From positions 1-33,343 of the forward strand of contig NZ_ARQI01000097.1 in assembly GCF_000384655.1 (NCBI RefSeq): 33,343 nt of DNA. Reading direction: 5' to 3'. This DNA is from Brachyspira innocens ATCC 29796 (GTDB taxonomy: Bacteria > Spirochaetota > Brachyspiria > Brachyspirales > Brachyspiraceae). The translations under genes were made by a program, and so were the position numbers. The stretch's first letter is position 1. Each line of letters begins with the position of its first letter. The notes beneath the pieces are model-generated. The model was not told the origin of the DNA and searched no databases. It saw only the letters and a program-made list of their open reading frames with translations. Below, piece by piece: positions 3,881 through 24,108 of the stretch.

Positions 3881-4170
3881 AGACTTGTTTCAAAACTAAT
3901 TTTATTTATAATTGTTGGGACTAGCCCATCGCTCTGCGAGCATTCATAAGCGAAAGGTTATATTTCAGGCTAAATTTAATAATTTATTCTACATGTAAAA
4001 CATGGTTATTACTATTTAGTATTATTTTTAGATTTTCACTTTCGCGAAGCGTGCCTTTGGCAGCAGCTTTGACGAAGTCCGCCTGCGACCGAAGGAAGTA
4101 CTGTTAAGTATGGTGTACGGCTGGCTTCGCCAAAAGTTGAGTAAAAAAATTGACAAACTTAAAAATTTTT
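3881..4170. repeat. Dispersed intergenic repeat, copy A (GC-rich core, ends shared with copies B and C)
   Basis: This lies in the 338-bp spacer between two convergent genes. Its left 42 bp (3881-3922) match the complement of 15961-16002 at 37 of 42 positions. Its right end contains acaaacttaaaaatt (4153-4167), the exact complement of 10624-10638 in copy C. The core has blocks around 3917-3955 (gggactagccc, cgctctg, agcgaaag) and 4041-4140, where 54 of 100 bases are G or C in otherwise very AT-rich DNA. No open reading frame of note crosses it. It may be a MITE-like or other non-coding dispersed element. A TTGACA hexamer (4150-4155) with TATTAA 17 bp on could be an outward promoter on the plus strand. 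Confidence 0.6.
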
Positions 4171-4194
4171 AGTATTAAAAAATTTTTAACTAAA

Positions 4195-10470: not shown

Positions 10471-10620
10471 ATAAACATCTCTCCTTAAAATATATTCTAT
10501 TAAATAAAACTAAAATTTCAATATTTATGTAAAAATAAATCTATTTTTTAATTTTCGGAAATATTTAAAAAATTGATAACATTATTTATTTTTTATAAAT
10601 ATTAATTTTTATCATATAGT

Positions 10621-10915
10621 AAGAATTTTTAAGTTTGTAAAAAATTAGTTTCTATATTTTTATTATTTTTGGCACTAACCAAACCGCTCTGTATAATTCT
10701 AAACAAAGCCCCAGATATAAAAATTATAAATATTATTTTAAATTATTTCATATAATAATACAATTATATACATGTGAAAAACTACAGTATATATTCTAAC
10801 ATATATTATCAGCACATAAATAATAATTATACTTTTCTATAAGCCTATACGAAATATAAAAACTCTGGCAAAGACCGAAGAGCATATACTGCAAAAAAGC
10901 TGATAATACATTTAC
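10621..10915. repeat. Dispersed intergenic repeat, copy C
   Basis: This occupies much of the 555-bp spacer between fliD and the cyclophilin terminator. It shares three landmarks with copy A. aatttttaagtttgt (10624-10638) is the complement of 4153-4167. ggcactaaccaaaccgctct (10671-10690) aligns with gggactagcccatcgctct at 3917-3935. gaccgaag near 10873, followed by tactg, resembles gaccgaaggaagtactg at about 4087-4103. It also holds an inverted repeat, tattatcagc (10804-10813) with gctgataata (10899-10908). No gene is visible. The boundaries are approximate. Confidence 0.45.
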
Positions 10916-15614: not shown

Positions 15615-15754
15615 AAAAAATCTCCAATTATAAAATAATTATACTCTTAAAAACAGTATAACAAAAAAACAATAATTGTCAATTTTTTGTAAATAAATAC
15701 ATATTAATTTTACAATTTTAAAAATAATAAAACTTATAAAAAATACTCTGCTAT

Positions 15755-16000
15755 ACTTGTTTCAAAAGACTTGACAATATTATGTATAAAATTATCTAGT
15801 TTTTAAAATTATAAATATTATGTTTTATATATAGTATAAACTGTTATTTTAGTATATAAACATGCAGTCTTTCGCTACCGATACCACAGGGGACTTCGTC
15901 GGCACACAGAGCGTCGGCAAAATAAATTGGTGTACAGCATGACTGTGTGCTTGCAATGATAGTCCATGCAACTATAAATAAAATTAATTTTGAAACAAGT
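15755..16000. repeat. MITE-like element with 13-bp terminal inverted repeats, copy B
   Basis: acttgtttcaaaa at 15755-15767 is exactly complementary to ttttgaaacaagt at 15988-16000, framing 246 bp. The inside is AT-rich on the left and GC-richer from about 15870 to 15960. The right 42 bp (15961-16002), read on the minus strand, match 3881-3922 of copy A at 37 of 42 positions, including the inverted-repeat sequence itself. GGACTTCGTC in the core also occurs in the complement of copy A. No transposase is encoded, so any mobility would depend on an enzyme supplied elsewhere. Together with flanking sequence it fills the 529-bp gap 15615-16143, which holds no supported gene. Confidence 0.6.
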
Positions 16001-16037
16001 CTTTTGTATTTTATATTTGAATATTTACAAATAAAAA

Positions 16038-16061
16038 GCAATGCATCTAAAAATACATTGC
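16038..16061 (-). terminator. Rho-independent terminator after the secreted protein pair
   Basis: Arms gcaatgcat (16038-16046) and atacattgc (16053-16061) pair with one mismatch around a 6-nt loop. On the minus strand it follows the gene ending at 16144 and continues into ttttt. Confidence 0.75.
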
Positions 16062-16143
16062 CTTTATAAAAATTATAAAGCATTTTTAAGTTAATTACTT
16101 CAATTATTTAATAATTTTAAACTTGATTATAAATTAATCAATA

Positions 16144-16821
16144 TTATCTAGTTTTATAAGTTGCATATCCATTTATTCTATTAATTCTTGAATATTCATC
16201 ATATGTATTTAAAACTAAATCCGCCATATTCAACATATATTCTACATAATAATTCTGTAAACATTTTTGTATATATTCATTTTTATTGTTTTTTAAATTT
16301 ATGAGCTTTTTAGCACTATTTAGTATAATATCTTCAAATTCTTTATTATACACTCCTCTCCAATCTATTAGATAATATTTTAAATTTACCTGAAGTTCAG
16401 CACATAAAATAGAAATATAGTATGGTAAAAAACCTTTTTTATACATACTTTTAGGATCATTATTATTTTTAGACATTACAAAAAGCATAGCCTTCATAGA
16501 ATCAGACATGTTTTTATAATCATTATAATTATAACGTATATTTTTAGTATATACGAATTTAGATATTTCATAAAAATATTCCATATAATCAAACTCATAA
16601 CCAGTAGACCAGTCAAATACTCTTAATTTTGGTTTGTTCATAATTGTTTCTAATGATAAAATAGTATCAAAATAACATACATCAAATTCAGAATAATTTC
16701 CTGATTTCATAGTATCTTTTCCAGCAGGTCCTATAACAAGATGCGTATATTCTTTTAACTGAGCAAAAACCATACTATTAATAAAACTAATAAAAATAAA
16801 AATAATTATAATTCTATTCAT
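16144..16821 (-). CDS. Secreted protein of unknown family
   Basis: I do not recognise this 225-residue protein. It has a clear signal peptide (MNRIIIIFIFISFINSMVFA, then QLKEY) and a helical, Tyr/Asn/Lys-rich mature part with no Cys-based or catalytic motif. GGAGGA lies 6 nt before the ATG, overlapping the end of the upstream gene, which stops only 12 bp earlier. The two are therefore almost surely translated from one message. Both have FA|Q cleavage sites, similar length, a shared pattern MYKKGFLPYYISIL versus IYRAGYSFIPCVLS in the middle, and Thr-Arg at or near the C-terminus. They may be diverged duplicates. Confidence 0.75.
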   Translation of the reverse strand: MNRIIIIFIFISFINSMVFAQLKEYTHLVIGPAGKDTMKSGNYSEFDVCYFDTILSLETIMNKPKLRVFDWSTGYEFDYMEYFYEISKFVYTKNIRYNYNDYKNMSDSMKAMLFVMSKNNNDPKSMYKKGFLPYYISILCAELQVNLKYYLIDWRGVYNKEFEDIILNSAKKLINLKNNKNEYIQKCLQNYYVEYMLNMADLVLNTYDEYSRINRINGYATYKTR

Positions 16822-16833
16822 AAAAATCCTCCA

Positions 16834-17484
16834 TTATCTGGTAACATATAAATAGGTACGACTTAGTTGTATTATATTATTATGAGTAATTGCATCTTGA
16901 ACTACAATTTCAAATAATTCAGTTGTATGTTTATAAAACTGATTATTCTCTTCTTCATATGATATATCATTATATTTTTTAGTATTTTCTATAGCTTTTA
17001 ATACTTGTTCAGATGTAAAAACTTTTTTCTGATCACATGCTGCATTCTTTATTGCTACCATTGCCATTAATCTTGACAGCACACAAGGTATAAAACTATA
17101 TCCTGCTCTATATATTTCTTCTTTTGTATTATGTTTAAACATAAAATTTAATGCATCTTCTAAAGCGTAATATATGGTTAAAGGATCATAAAGAGGATTA
17201 TCATATTTATCAAATAAATAAAATTCAACATTATTATCTGAAATGATATCTTGTAAAGTTGAATATTCAAATAAATATTCTGCTTTATTTGTAATATTTT
17301 CTTCTATTTCTTCACCAAATTTTAACCTCGCTACATATTCTTCATCTATTCCAGTAAAACTATATTGTTCTAAAAATGCTTGAGCTTTTGGACCTAATTT
17401 ATATAGTCTTTTAGTAGGCAATTGAGCAAAACCTATATGTATAGTAATAAACATCAATATTATGATATATAATATATTTTTCAT
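16834..17484 (-). CDS. Secreted protein of unknown family, possible paralogue of the next gene
   Basis: This 216-residue product starts with signal peptide MKNILYIIILMFITIHIGFA followed by QLPTKRLYK. The ATG at 17482-17484 is preferred over an upstream in-frame start (17562). AGGAG sits 7 nt before it, and the extra 26 residues would spoil the signal peptide and run into a hairpin. The mature part is helical and acidic with no recognised domain. It is first in a two-gene unit with the gene at 16144-16821. The alignment of the middle regions suggests, but does not prove, common origin. Confidence 0.72.
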   Translation of the reverse strand: MKNILYIIILMFITIHIGFAQLPTKRLYKLGPKAQAFLEQYSFTGIDEEYVARLKFGEEIEENITNKAEYLFEYSTLQDIISDNNVEFYLFDKYDNPLYDPLTIYYALEDALNFMFKHNTKEEIYRAGYSFIPCVLSRLMAMVAIKNAACDQKKVFTSEQVLKAIENTKKYNDISYEEENNQFYKHTTELFEIVVQDAITHNNIIQLSRTYLYVTR

Positions 17485-17543
17485 TTTAATTCTCCTATTT
17501 ATTTTATAATTAATCTTATCAAGTAGTTTTGAAATAAATATGA

Positions 17544-17584
17544 TATAAATGCAATGTACCAAAGTTAAGTAAATTGCATTTATA
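17544..17584 (-). terminator. Perfect 12-bp inverted repeat, terminator or attenuator
   Basis: tataaatgcaat (17544-17555) and attgcattta plus ta (17573-17584) form a 12-bp stem with a 17-nt loop. It lies between the small gene ending at 17607 and the secreted protein start at 17484. The T tract on the minus strand is poor, so it may be an attenuator or a leaky terminator for the small genes. Confidence 0.5.
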
Positions 17585-17606
17585 AAAATTAAAAATAATA
17601 TTTGTA

Positions 17607-17810
17607 TTAATTACTTCCATATCCTCTTTCTTTCAATAAAGAAGCTATAGCCATCTTTTTAGCCCCAGATGCCCTTGCAAATTCTCTTTTTAATCTTTCA
17701 TCATCGTATGAAGAATATTCCATCTTGTATTTATTAAAATCATCATTAAAGTTTTTTACTTGTTTACCAACAAATTTAGCACCTGATTTAACCATATCAA
17801 AAAAGCCCAT
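17607..17810 (-). CDS. Small protein of unknown function (67 aa)
   Basis: This is a 67-residue basic/acidic helical protein (MGFFDMVKSGAKFVGKQV...) with no signal peptide or membrane segment. The N-terminal FxxMVKSGAKFVGKQVK could be amphipathic. The ATG follows a clear purine-rich GGGGGA. It lies 36 bp downstream of another very small gene (17847-18005) on the same strand, so the two probably share a message. No family was recognised. Similar small proteins with a GAKKMAIASLLKERG-type end are unknown to me. Confidence 0.65.
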   Translation of the reverse strand: MGFFDMVKSGAKFVGKQVKNFNDDFNKYKMEYSSYDDERLKREFARASGAKKMAIASLLKERGYGSN

Positions 17811-17846
17811 AATTTCCCCCTTTTTTTTGAATAAATTTTAAACGGT

Positions 17847-18005
17847 TTACCTTACACTTAAAATTTTTATATCTTTTACAAATGGATATCTGCTTTCAAC
17901 TTGTTTTATTGCAGAATAATCACTTTCTGCTTTAACGCTTACAGTCATTCCGTTCCAACCCTTTCCATCTTTAGAATACTTAAAACTAATATTATATGTT
18001 TTCAT
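17847..18005 (-). CDS. Very small protein of unknown function (52 aa)
   Basis: A 52-codon reading frame starts at ATG 18003-18005 and stops at 17847-17849. AAGAGG lies a suitable distance upstream. The protein begins MKTYNISFKYSKDGKGWNGM and ends KDIKILSVR. The alternation of strands and a central helix (SDYSAIKQVESRYP) fits a small beta-beta-alpha-beta fold that resembles short proteins found near mobile elements. No function can be given. It is first in a probable two-gene unit with 17607-17810. Confidence 0.65.
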   Translation of the reverse strand: MKTYNISFKYSKDGKGWNGMTVSVKAESDYSAIKQVESRYPFVKDIKILSVR

Positions 18006-18123
18006 TTTTTGCACCTCTTAAAATAATTATATTTACATTAATTATAGACTAAAAAAAAAAAAACAAGTATTTTTATATAAAAAATATATTTTTTATATAA
18101 AAATAAAGATTATCAATAAAAAA

Positions 18124-18149
18124 GGCGATACCTTAAAAAAGATACCGCC
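18124..18149 (-). terminator. Rho-independent terminator after the alpha-2-macroglobulin gene
   Basis: Arms ggcgatacctt (18124-18134) and aagataccgcc (18139-18149) form an 11-bp stem on the minus strand, with two wobble pairs and a 4-nt loop. The stem is followed by TTTTTT. It lies 35 bp past the stop at 18184. Confidence 0.85.
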
Positions 18150-18183
18150 CTTTAAATTTTATTCTAACAATTTAATTATTAAA

Positions 18184-21100
18184 TTATTTAGCCTCAATTA
18201 TTACTTTATACTGTCCGTCATAACCAAATACTTCTGGATTATACATCTCTTCAGCTTTAGTAGCAGGAAGCAAATATTCACCAGGAGTAGCTGCTCTAAC
18301 TACATATTTGTATACATGCTCTCCCTTATCAAGAATATCGGCAAATAATAATATTTTGTCACTATAGTTTTCAGTATGATTAAATCCGCCCCACCAGCTT
18401 GTACCTTGATTGCCGGTAATGTTTTTAACTTCAATGCTTTCTGTAGCAAATGAAGAGTTTAATATTCTCATACCAGAAGCAATAGGAGTGTCAACTACTA
18501 CAAAATGTCTCTCATAAGGAACTGTAACTTTTACTACAACAACATATTCCTCACCTTGTTTGAATTTATCTTTTGTAAGGTCTAATACTTTACCGTCTTT
18601 AGTTTGATACTCTCTAACAACTTTTATTCCAGCATCTCTATTAACAGCTAAGTCACGAGGTGCATAAGTAAGTCTTACGCCGTAATAAAGTCTGCCATCT
18701 CCGTTTCTTTTAATACTTGCTAAAGCACTTCTAGTATTTAAATTGCTTAATCTGTCATTCATAAACTCATCTAAAGCATAATTTTTTGTTAGGCTAGGCT
18801 GAGTTCTTGAACTAAATGTTTCTGCAAGTAAAGTTTGTCCCTGATATATAAACTCTGCTTTGAAATTAGGACTAACATTTTCGTATTTTTTATAATACAT
18901 ATTCATAGCAGCAAATACTGAAACATTATCCTGAGTATTTAAATATCTGCCGTTTTTTCTTGACTGAACAATCCAGCGAACCACTTTTTCATTAATAGCA
19001 TTATCATATCCTGTTTCTATTAATGCATATAAAGCTACAGAAGTATCTCTTACTGATGAAGAGTGTATCCAATAAAGATTAGCGTATCTTCCTTCAAGTT
19101 CATAATGAGCAGTAGTAGGGTCTTCTTTAATAGTATTGAGTATATACTGTCTTACATTAGTAAATGCATTATTGTCATATTTATTATAGTACATAGCCCT
19201 CATTAATTGAACCTGTCCGTAGAAAGGAATATTATTAACTTGTGGGTATATTCTGTCTATTATAGCTTTTACATCATTAGCGTTGTATCCGCCCTCAGCA
19301 AGAACTGCAGCAATATAAGCTATAGAAGATAAATTAATATATTCATCATTCCAGAAGCTAGGTTTTTCAGCATTTCCGCTTTTAGCATAATTGTTTATAT
19401 ATTCTAATGCCAACTGTAAAGAGTTTTCATCAATAGCGTATCCCTCTTTTTTAGCCTTAATCATAGCATCAGCAGCATAAGCAGTAAGCCATGGTGATAT
19501 CCAAGTTTTGCTAGGCCAGTATGAGAACCCTCCATTAAGACTTTGATATGTTGGCATAGTTTTCAAGAAATCAGTTACTGTTTTATCTAATTCTGATTCT
19601 GGTATATCAGTAAGTTTCATGTCTACTAATAATCTTTTGCTTGTTATTATAGGATAAACTCTTGATAACTGCTGCTCTAAACAAAGATAAGGATAATTAA
19701 TAAGATAATTAATTCCTCCAGAAAGTTCACTAAATGCACTAGGAGACATATAAACTTCCAAACTTCCAGCACCTCTATACGCTTCTGTAATATTAGGTAC
19801 TCTTATCATCAAATCAGTATTGTTGTTTGTAGTGCTTGAGAATACTGCAACTGACTCTGTAGTCATAGGTACATTAACCTCAAATGATTTCTCTACAGCA
19901 TCAGTATATTCTCCGCCTTTAGCAAGTATAGTAACTTTAGCCTCTCCTCTGTTTGTAGCTATAATATCAAATCTTACATCAGCATTTCCGCCTTTAGGAA
20001 CTGTTATTTTTTGTACATCATTTTCTATCATAGCATTAGAAGCAACAGCCTGAACTTCTATTTCTAAATCTTTATCAGAATAGTTATAAACTAATGTACC
20101 AGCTTTTAATTTATCTTCAACATAGGCAAACTCTGGAAGTGTAGGCATAAGCATAATATTTTTCTTAACTACAACAACATCATCAGAAGCCCCGAAATAA
20201 CCATCTTTGTTTATAGCAGAAGCCATTATTCTAAATGATGTAATATTGTCTGGTAAATTAAATGTAACTGTAGCTTTACCCTCAGCATCAGTTTTTACTC
20301 TTCCTTGATAGAAAGCAGTAGTAAGGAAATTTTTTCTTATGCTGAATACGTCCATACCCATAGCTTCAGCTTTAGCCATAAGTGAAGCATTAGCTCTCAT
20401 ACCGTCTCCGCCCGGTGTATCTCCTTTTTCTCCATAGTTACGCTGACCTATCAAATGTATTCTTGTATCGGCACTTGCTACACTCAAAGGTCTTTTTCCG
20501 TAGAATGTATTAAACCAATTAGGAGTTTTGTATCCTATTAAATTTAATACTCCCACATCAACAACACTTAACATTATCTCTGTTTCCATAGGTTTGCTTT
20601 CTTTTGTTTCAACATATAAATCAACTGTCATCTCATCACGAGGCTCTAAGCTGTCAGCAGATTTTGTTATTTTTACATTAAGCTCTTTTTCACGCGGAGA
20701 AACTGAAAGTCCTGCATAACCTATTTTAAATGACGGCTTACCTTCATCAGTTGCATAATTAGTATAAGCTTCATTTTCAACTCTCCCTTTAACAAGTGAA
20801 ACACCTACATAAACATTAGGCAAATATTCTGGTTTTATAGGTACTTCTATTAAAGCAGTGGAGCCTTCTATATTTGTTACAAAAGAATCTATTACATATT
20901 CTCTTTCAACTGTTACCAAAGCAGTAGCAGATTCATAAGGAGATTTTACCATTATTCTAGCTGTTTCATAAGGCTGATACTCTTCTTTTTCTGTTATAAG
21001 CTCCAGCAAATCATCATCAAACATAGCCCAAGGAGCATAATCTTTACCTATAACATACATATATTCATCAGAAGCAACTTCTCTGTTTTTAGAATCTTTT

Positions 21101-23934
21101 GCTCTTGCTAATACTATATAAAGTCCGGAGTTTGTAGGAGTAAAACTAAAAGATACAGGATCTTTAGCTGTTGTAACTGTAGTAGTTTCAACAACATCAT
21201 CAATCTGTTTAGATTCCCATTCAAATCTTCCGCCTGTTATAGCCTTTCTTACAGATTCCCAATGTCTTCTTATAACTTGTACTTCTATTTTTTTACCTTC
21301 AAGTCTGTTGCCTTCTGGGTCTGCTGCTATAAACTCTAATTGTGTAGGTTTATCAGTTTCCAAGAAATATCCTTGTCTTTTTATACCTATATAATAATCG
21401 CTTCCATGAACTAATACACTTTTAGTTGTGCTTACTCTCTGAGAATCCTCACCTGATACAGTTGATTCTATAGTAACATAAGCTGCATGTATTGAACGGC
21501 TTGCATCTACAGTAGGAGCATAAGCATATTCTCCTTTTTCATCTAATGAAGCTGTACCGTTTGCTATCATAGAATAATAATTGTTATAATACTCATCTTC
21601 AAACCAGCTTAATTTTGTAAATCTGAATCCTGCATTATTAGGCGGAGTAAAGAAAGTTTCATTCATAGATATATTATAATCTACCTGATTAGATATCATA
21701 GGCTCGCCGAATAAATACCAGCCAGACATTTTTATAGGCATAGTATCGCCTAAATAATAATTTTTATCTTCAACCCATAATCTGCTCTCATATTCTAAAG
21801 GTTTAAACTCTTCTACTCTGAAACTTTGTGATAAACTGTATGAGGTATTTTCCTCTCTGTCATTATTAGACTCGCTTTTAAACTCAGCATTTACATTATA
21901 ATAACCTGTAGGAGCATCGGCTGGAAGTGTGAAATCTATCAAATAAGAACCATATTCATTTAAAGTAATTGTTCCTTTATGTATCTCTTCACCTCTTGAA
22001 TTGTTTATTGTAAATGTTCCGTTTTTTAAATCACTAGGTATTTGCCAGCTGCCTATTCTATTTTCTCTTATAACACCTTTTATATGTACCTCTTCTCCTG
22101 CTTTATAAATACCTCTTTCTGTAAACATAGAGCCGTTATAATCTTTAGTAGGAGGAGCATCATTATAACTTATATCCATTCTCCAAGGTGAAACACCTGT
22201 ACCCCAGTCGCTATTTATAAAAGATACATCATCTCCTTTTGTAACTATAGCCCATTGTCTTGGTGATGACCATCTGCTTACTCTGTTTATACCTAAAGCT
22301 CTGAATCCTTTAGTAGTAGCTATTCCATTTTCATCAGTAGTAGCTTTTTCTAATACTCTGTTAAAGTCATCTCTTATTTCTACTTGAGCTCCTTCAATAG
22401 GCATTCCTGTTTTTAAATCTGTTACAAATATTGTATTTGAATCTCCTGAGAATTTTCCTGTTACTCCCATAGATGTAATTTGTATTTGTGAAGATGATGA
22501 ATAATCATACTGACTTTGATATCCAGTCTTACTTTTAAACTCTATTGATAAAAGTCCGTATTGTTTATTATTCATATAGTTTGTTAAATAAAGTGCTGTT
22601 GTGATGTATCTGTTTCTTTCAACATCTGGAGTGTACTCTGTAGTGTTATTATATCCCAATAAGTTTTTATATTGGTTTGTATAATTTCTAAACTCTGCAC
22701 TTTCATCATATCTGTATACTTCTTTATTTACAAATAAAAATGGTATGATATTTTCTTTATCAACATATCTGCTTTGTATATTAATAGTATTAGGGTTCAT
22801 TACCTGTACTGGAAGTTTTATTCCTTCATAAGATTCTACAACTCCCATTCCAGAAGGTATAGAAAGGCTTGGATTATAGTCTGTAACATTTAATGTAATG
22901 TTTTGTTCTTTTCCTAAAGTTTGTCCGTAAGCATCTTTAAGACTTCCGTTTATTTTTATATTGTATGTAACATTAGGATTAAACCTTAAAGAATAAAGTG
23001 AAAAACTTTTAGAGCTCCAAGAGTTTTGCTGTATATCTTCTTCTGTAGGAAGCTGAATTGCTGGAGTTATTTCAATATTTCTTATCAAATCCGCCCATTC
23101 AACTCTTGTAGAGAAATTAATTCTAGGAGCTTCTGGAGAATATGACGCTGTTACCGTTTGTTCACTATCTCCATTAAAATAGAATTCATCATGTGTAGAA
23201 AAAGTAAAACTGTCATTATCTGCAGTTCCCAAATTTCCATTAATAGCAGCAAGCCCTTCTTCTATATGTACTGTTATTTTATCATTCTTATCCAAAACAG
23301 TTTTAGGCTTTATAACTAGTACTTGTTCAAGTTCGTATTCATTAGTTTCCCATTCTCTTAAATCTTCCAACCTTGCATATCTAACATCAAAGTCTATATT
23401 TCTGTAAGTATTGCTTGAAATTAATTCTATATTTTCTTTGGCACTTTCAAGATATATAGGCATATTATAATAAACAACTATATTTACATCAGTAGCCAAA
23501 TCTGACTGTCTGTCATAAGGAGAACTTTTCTGCATTATAGGTCTTAAAGTATTAAAACTCCAAGTATAATCATTTTCTAATACTTCTCCTGTAAGTTCGC
23601 TTTTTATTCCTTTTTTAAGTGTAACTTCAATAGCTGTATTATCAGGCAAAGGCTCACTAGGATAAAAAGCTAAAGTATTAATAGAAAGCCATCTATAAGT
23701 ACCTTTAACATCTACATTAAAACTGAAATATTCATTAGTTACTTCTTTTATAGACTGCAAAGCAACCATCTGCTGATTGAATGTCACAGTTATTGCTTCA
23801 TAGTTATATCTGCTAGTATTTTCTCCTATTGGACTTGTTCTATCAATAGCAACAGCAGCAAACATACTTACCCCCATTATAAATAACATAATAGCAGCAT
23901 AATAAATAGTTTTCAATTTTAACATATTTAACAT
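18184..23934 (-). CDS. Bacterial alpha-2-macroglobulin with CLEQ thioester
   Basis: This 1916-residue protein is a bacterial alpha-2-macroglobulin, an envelope protease trap. Bait-region cleavage exposes a reactive thioester that captures the protease. The N-terminus has a hydrophobic segment (YYAAIMLFIMGVSMFAAVA) but no lipobox cysteine, unlike typical lipid-anchored members, so it may be anchored or free in the periplasm. A Big-like N-terminal segment with PLPDNTAIEV, MG-domain motifs (RGIYKAGEEVHIKG, TDKPTQLEF) and the KTDAEGKATVTFNLPDNITS stretch are visible. The thioester YLCLEQQLSR has Cys1418. The ATG at 23932-23934 has GGAG 6 nt upstream and is preferred over a TTG five codons earlier. 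pbpC, the usual neighbour, is absent here. Confidence 0.95.
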   Translation of the reverse strand: MLNMLKLKTIYYAAIMLFIMGVSMFAAVAIDRTSPIGENTSRYNYEAITVTFNQQMVALQSIKEVTNEYFSFNVDVKGTYRWLSINTLAFYPSEPLPDNTAIEVTLKKGIKSELTGEVLENDYTWSFNTLRPIMQKSSPYDRQSDLATDVNIVVYYNMPIYLESAKENIELISSNTYRNIDFDVRYARLEDLREWETNEYELEQVLVIKPKTVLDKNDKITVHIEEGLAAINGNLGTADNDSFTFSTHDEFYFNGDSEQTVTASYSPEAPRINFSTRVEWADLIRNIEITPAIQLPTEEDIQQNSWSSKSFSLYSLRFNPNVTYNIKINGSLKDAYGQTLGKEQNITLNVTDYNPSLSIPSGMGVVESYEGIKLPVQVMNPNTINIQSRYVDKENIIPFLFVNKEVYRYDESAEFRNYTNQYKNLLGYNNTTEYTPDVERNRYITTALYLTNYMNNKQYGLLSIEFKSKTGYQSQYDYSSSSQIQITSMGVTGKFSGDSNTIFVTDLKTGMPIEGAQVEIRDDFNRVLEKATTDENGIATTKGFRALGINRVSRWSSPRQWAIVTKGDDVSFINSDWGTGVSPWRMDISYNDAPPTKDYNGSMFTERGIYKAGEEVHIKGVIRENRIGSWQIPSDLKNGTFTINNSRGEEIHKGTITLNEYGSYLIDFTLPADAPTGYYNVNAEFKSESNNDREENTSYSLSQSFRVEEFKPLEYESRLWVEDKNYYLGDTMPIKMSGWYLFGEPMISNQVDYNISMNETFFTPPNNAGFRFTKLSWFEDEYYNNYYSMIANGTASLDEKGEYAYAPTVDASRSIHAAYVTIESTVSGEDSQRVSTTKSVLVHGSDYYIGIKRQGYFLETDKPTQLEFIAADPEGNRLEGKKIEVQVIRRHWESVRKAITGGRFEWESKQIDDVVETTTVTTAKDPVSFSFTPTNSGLYIVLARAKDSKNREVASDEYMYVIGKDYAPWAMFDDDLLELITEKEEYQPYETARIMVKSPYESATALVTVEREYVIDSFVTNIEGSTALIEVPIKPEYLPNVYVGVSLVKGRVENEAYTNYATDEGKPSFKIGYAGLSVSPREKELNVKITKSADSLEPRDEMTVDLYVETKESKPMETEIMLSVVDVGVLNLIGYKTPNWFNTFYGKRPLSVASADTRIHLIGQRNYGEKGDTPGGDGMRANASLMAKAEAMGMDVFSIRKNFLTTAFYQGRVKTDAEGKATVTFNLPDNITSFRIMASAINKDGYFGASDDVVVVKKNIMLMPTLPEFAYVEDKLKAGTLVYNYSDKDLEIEVQAVASNAMIENDVQKITVPKGGNADVRFDIIATNRGEAKVTILAKGGEYTDAVEKSFEVNVPMTTESVAVFSSTTNNNTDLMIRVPNITEAYRGAGSLEVYMSPSAFSELSGGINYLINYPYLCLEQQLSRVYPIITSKRLLVDMKLTDIPESELDKTVTDFLKTMPTYQSLNGGFSYWPSKTWISPWLTAYAADAMIKAKKEGYAIDENSLQLALEYINNYAKSGNAEKPSFWNDEYINLSSIAYIAAVLAEGGYNANDVKAIIDRIYPQVNNIPFYGQVQLMRAMYYNKYDNNAFTNVRQYILNTIKEDPTTAHYELEGRYANLYWIHSSSVRDTSVALYALIETGYDNAINEKVVRWIVQSRKNGRYLNTQDNVSVFAAMNMYYKKYENVSPNFKAEFIYQGQTLLAETFSSRTQPSLTKNYALDEFMNDRLSNLNTRSALASIKRNGDGRLYYGVRLTYAPRDLAVNRDAGIKVVREYQTKDGKVLDLTKDKFKQGEEYVVVVKVTVPYERHFVVVDTPIASGMRILNSSFATESIEVKNITGNQGTSWWGGFNHTENYSDKILLFADILDKGEHVYKYVVRAATPGEYLLPATKAEEMYNPEVFGYDGQYKVIIEAK

Positions 23935-24108
23935 AAACTTCTCCAACAAACTATATTTTTGATTTTATAAAGTTATATCATATATAATTTAAAAGTAAAC
24001 TATAAAAGTAAAAATATTTTATACTTGTTGTATTATAATATTTTTTATTTACTATAAAATTACATATTATTATATAAAACTAAAAAAATATAAAAAAGTG
24101 CTATGTTA

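Follow-up and report, generated by a model that had tools for sequence, protein, structure and literature searches.

The 246-bp segment and its copies

The segment at positions 15755-16000 of the window, by which we mean the whole analysed stretch of 33,343 nt, begins and ends in a 13-bp perfect inverted repeat, ACTTGTTTCAAAA at 15755-15767 and TTTTGAAACAAGT at 15988-16000, as reported in the preliminary description. Perfect inverted repeats of at least 13 bp within 300 bp occur at only three places in the window, the other two being pure A/T or nearly so, and the repeat at 15755/15988 is more than chance. The segment had also been called gene-free with a GC-richer core, and both statements held: GC content is 49% in the core (15862-15971), against 14-15% in the arms and 29% in the window, and no credible gene was found inside 15755-16000, the only overlapping open reading frame (ORF) of at least 60 aa being a 79-aa minus-strand frame that extends through the repeat. 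Recurrence of the right end at 'copy A' was confirmed by an exact 13-mer at 3883-3895. The features are:

15755-15767, plus strand: left terminal inverted repeat (TIR), 13 bp perfect, preceded by AT instead of the AG of the family TIR
15768-15861, plus strand: AT-rich left arm, CTTGACA..., conserved with about 80-87% identity among copies
15862-15971, plus strand: GC-rich variable core, ATGCAGTC..., a degenerate form of the hairpin modules of other copies
15972-15987, plus strand: short AT-rich right arm
15988-16000, minus strand: right TIR, followed by CT as in the rest of the family
3881-4176, minus strand: 'copy A', a chimera in which a GC-rich core lies between a family-A end (3881-3895) and a family-B end, TTGACAAACTTAAAAATTTTTAGTAT (4150-4176)

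The TIR of the family to which the segment belongs (family A) is 15 bp, AGACTTGTTTCAAAA, and therefore longer than the 13 bp first noted; the left end of the window copy reads ATACTTG, with one terminal base mutated. A search of the own 3.28-Mb genome with the 246 bp, as proposed in the preliminary description, led to 57 matches rather than a single copy, that is, to tens of copies with common ends, in which the left 120 bp and the right 40 bp are conserved and the core is not. At up to one mismatch the 13-mer occurs 170 times genome-wide, compared to 27 times for the reversed pattern as control. Fifty complete TIR-bounded copies were collected from the own genome for analysis; most are 200-370 bp long, and one of 666 bp carries a second copy nested in it. 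When a 233-bp copy was used as query, matches were detected in 26 of 26 Brachyspira species genomes, a few of them with just one or two weak matches. No DNA match to the element was found in the phage and plasmid collections, and an origin from either was rejected on these grounds. The segment is therefore short (below about 600 bp), non-coding, bounded by TIRs and dispersed in copies with common ends, as expected for a MITE. All 46 copies whose context could be resolved are outside ORFs, 17 of them between convergent, 5 between divergent and 24 between tandem genes, counts that rest on simple ORFs as gene calls and are indicative only.

Target duplication and the history of the window copy

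A 3-bp target duplication, AAT/ATT, follows both from sites that are empty in the two closest relatives and from the flanks of the 50 copies. When the joined flanks of 22 copies were searched against these relatives, about 10 own copies other than that at 15755-16000 had an empty orthologous site, seen as a single match across the junction, so that the outcome named in advance as speaking against mobility, the lack of any empty-site allele in relatives, did not occur. The cleanest empty sites (L026, L058, L066, L041, L054) agree with a 3-bp duplication of AAT/ATT and not with TA: the sequence in the relative falls 3 bp short of the length expected for TA, as it would with a 15-bp TIR next to AAT/ATT. 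Left and right 3-mers are equal in 31 of 50 copies (shuffled right flanks: mean 16.3, maximum 26 in 2000 shuffles), and 29 of these 31 are AAT or ATT. The short target duplications that had been suggested as a check were thereby found, with the window copy itself retaining none. Two further empty sites (L030, L056) are not clean to the base, and a third site (L031) is not clean due to different MITEs there in other species. At L031 (1400-1633) and its orthologous sites L146, L147, L153, L155 and L156, different MITE-like inserts were observed depending on the species, and none in others; this intergenic site is an insertion hotspot. One insertion (L035) is common to the own genome and both closest relatives and missing in three more distant species. 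At L028 (1326-1633) a 13-bp direct repeat, AATAAATTACTAT, flanks the copy and is present once in the relative, exceeding the usual 3 bp.

The 3-mers flanking the window copy differ (GCT and TTT), with no matching duplication. In Brachyspira sp. G79 homology stops 10 bp short of the element, and two other genes occupy the interval. In the other closest relative (G009) the ankyrin gene is separated from the large gene (18184-23949 in the window) by only a few hundred bases, which lack the element. No other species yielded a match to the right flank. Both closest relatives thus lack the element at the orthologous position, which lies at the margin of a variable patch; since the copy is decayed and its right flank species-specific, its own insertion was inferred from this absence rather than from a clean empty site. 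It is an old, decayed member of family A. The variable patch itself (15615-18184) spans from the ankyrin-repeat gene to the large gene; it is reduced to a few hundred bases in G009, holds two 5'-nucleotidase-like genes in G79, and consists of the MITE and small genes in the window, where the nearest stretch matches no other species.

Candidate parent elements of two MITE families

According to a published survey, bacterial IS5 elements duplicate a 5'-ANT-3' target (PMC4482050), a pattern to which the 3-bp duplication of family A conforms. As an A-W-T duplication of this length predicts an IS5-type parent, the genus was then searched for DDE_Tnp_4 (PF13359), and matches were obtained in 2 of 26 species, at three places, each adjoining a family-A TIR. 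One relic (L180), in a sister species, has TIRs at both ends, 754 bp apart, with a decayed transposase between them, and its left end is similar to the first bases (about 27 bp) of the MITE left arm. The best-preserved transposase fragment gave its best NCBIfam score with 'IS5 family transposase' (model IS5_4; E 7.6e-28), under the model cut-off as the ORF is partial, and exceeds the Pfam cut-offs for both PF01609 and PF13359. Protein searches with this fragment showed that many contigs of B. pilosicoli PC5538III-hc (G011) terminate inside the element. At least 12 contig ends of this strain share one identical 110-bp IS end with the exact 15-bp TIR, and AAT/ATT follows the TIR in 11 of the 12. 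Such identical ends are what a recently multiplied IS leaves when assembly collapses it; the repeat collapses at contig ends, and no complete assembled copy was seen. An IS5 transposase with a TIR identical to that of the MITE is present in B. pilosicoli, and decayed IS5 relics were found in two other species (G018 and G004), the one in G004 adjoining a TIR-like end. The upstream part of an open frame at L178 (1381-1520), which overlaps another transposase-like ORF, matches short repeats at about 110 places in the same B. pilosicoli genome, probably a second abundant IS there.

DDE_Tnp_4 and protein searches revealed no transposase of the family-A type in the own genome, for which reason the copies there are probably stranded. 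Inside the TIR, homology between MITE and IS is limited to the first left-arm bases, and over 75 bp similarity is mostly within shuffled controls. Plasmids carry only distant IS5 relatives of the transposase, and no relatives were found in viral contigs. IS5-family insertion sequences with ANT targets are classed in the ISL2 group, and family A may derive from it.

The same GC-rich core also lies between ends of a second type (family B), TATACTAAAAATTTTTAAGTTTGTCAA ... TTGACAAATTATATTTGTTTAGGTATA; read outward, each of these ends gives TTGACA-N17-TATA. Ends of this family flank a decayed IS630 (DDE_3) transposase in Brachyspira sp. G79 (L115, about 750-1820), the only one in 26 species, and this relic is likely the parent of family B. 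Chimeras with one A and one B end were found at window positions 3881-4176 and at L032, L050, L095 and L096, as read by eye, since the patterns of the automatic arm classification are loose and some copies, L027, L031 and L054 among them, are mislabelled by it. The chimera at 3881-4176 arose probably by recombination within the shared core; its family-B end reads outward TTGACA-N17-TATT. A degenerate family-B end with three differences from the consensus is located at 10615-10641 of the window.

With an IS630 relic in the genus, family A might itself be attributed to a transposase of the IS630/mariner type that duplicates TA at the target, and the reading ...TA|G...C|TA... of most copies indeed resembles such a duplication. 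This parentage was first assumed from the flanks and was rejected by the empty sites, which are 3 bp shorter than TA requires, and by the own genome, in which no DDE_3 gene was found. In addition, the IS630 relic bears family-B and not family-A ends, while all three DDE_Tnp_4 matches adjoin family-A ends. Family A shows neither the 2-bp TA duplication nor a DDE_3 parent with matching ends, and we regard an IS630 origin as highly improbable.

From the copies, the 3-bp duplication, the empty sites and the transposase genes with matching ends in sister species, the segment at 15755-16000 is, with a probability of roughly 0.93, an IS5-derived MITE that would be moved by an IS5 relative recognising the 15-bp ends, in line with the preliminary description of a MITE or other non-autonomous element. 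Under the proposed mechanism, a full-length IS5 relative would supply a transposase that recognises AGACTTGTTTCAAAA on either side of the short element, moves it in trans and integrates it into AT-rich intergenic DNA at AAT/ATT, with duplication of those 3 bp. The GC-rich core, with its conserved hairpin pairing and modular length, is in this reading a passenger, as mobility can be explained without it. As the own-genome copies come with no transposase, this mobilisation, including the mover and the presumed stranding of the copies, is reconstructed from sequence and not observed.

The hairpin core and comparison with known systems

Common to the cores are ATGCAGTC and two hairpins, the first being (C/G)TTCTTT..loop..AAAAGAA(G/C) and the second closing with GGGG..CCCC. 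Among 16 short-loop cores 98.8% of cells are paired, five pairs have changed on both sides, and the covariation score was reached by none of 500 shuffles, a count that overstates the strength of the covariation, related copies not being independent. In 41 cores, hairpin 1 has C-G as its outer pair 29 times and G-C 12 times, with no mismatch. This supports a conserved pairing of the core, as RNA or as DNA, or else a repair process that perfects palindromes. Loop lengths in the first hairpin range between 8 and 59 nt, and at L035 the copy of Brachyspira sp. G79 lacks a loop module that is present in the other two orthologous copies; constant ends thus enclose variable middle modules that alter in place, as in BOX elements. 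At two places (L089, L090) the core was observed lacking A or B ends, within short AT-rich inverted repeats that differ by site; no clean empty site in relatives was found for either as an insertion of the core alone.

Such pairing raises the question of whether the element acts mainly as RNA or in regulation, as a riboswitch, terminator or sRNA that was duplicated round the genome, with the inverted repeats as part of its fold. The compensatory changes in the core would agree with this, as would the position of copies outside genes, with more convergent than divergent pairs (17 and 5), and the plus strand, which folds better than shuffles (z -3.8). Against it stand the 3-bp duplications and empty sites, which indicate transposition, the existence of a transposase with identical ends, and a core that is highly variable and partly lost in one orthologous copy. 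As the Rfam search of the element also gave no meaningful family match, a known RNA family was rejected, and the reading as a duplicated functional unit is very unlikely. A chance palindrome or non-mobile local duplication, conceivable in an AT-rich genome with other perfect inverted repeats elsewhere in the window, is refuted for practical purposes by tens of copies with matching ends and arms across genome and genus.

Beyond the assignment as an IS5-derived MITE, the core might be a genetic module of its own that was passed between the IS5-type A and IS630-type B families, either through recombination or by moving itself, and was kept genus-wide by selection on the paired structure; we consider this rather doubtful. 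The element is a well-supported but mostly ordinary mobile repeat, its unusual part being a GC-rich hairpin core common to an unrelated transposon family. Family A has matches in 26 of 26 species genomes and its candidate parent IS was traced to B. pilosicoli; as copies are polymorphic between sister species, they are usable as insertion markers. The shared core offers a testable case of how two unrelated transposons come to have one hairpin module between their ends.

Compared with IS5-family insertion sequences (relatives in the PHIS superfamily; PMC4482050), the element is alike in its short TIR and 3-bp A-W-T duplication, and its proposed parent in the DDE transposase (PF13359/PF01609, NCBIfam IS5). 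In contrast to these, the window element has no transposase gene; all that it keeps, around an unrelated core, are the ends and a few left-arm bases. The Correia/NEMIS elements of Neisseria and RUP of pneumococcus are likewise 100-250-bp intergenic MITEs, Correia carrying promoters and RUP being tied to IS630 via its ends (PMC10969869, PMC3049150), but they have other ends and another parent family, whereas the duplication here is 3-bp AWT. BOX of Streptococcus pneumoniae and S. suis (PMC3049150) is also modular: its end modules are fixed, and its hairpin middle varies and is resized in place. One boxB middle is found between two different pairs of ends in S. suis (PMC3049150), an arrangement resembled by families A and B around one core, and the principle of two ends with one middle is therefore not new. 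Family A works like BOX in this respect, with differences in other points: sequence, host and ends differ, the core consists here of nested hairpins instead of a tandem boxB array, and for both end types there are candidate parents, IS5 for family A and the IS630 relic for family B.
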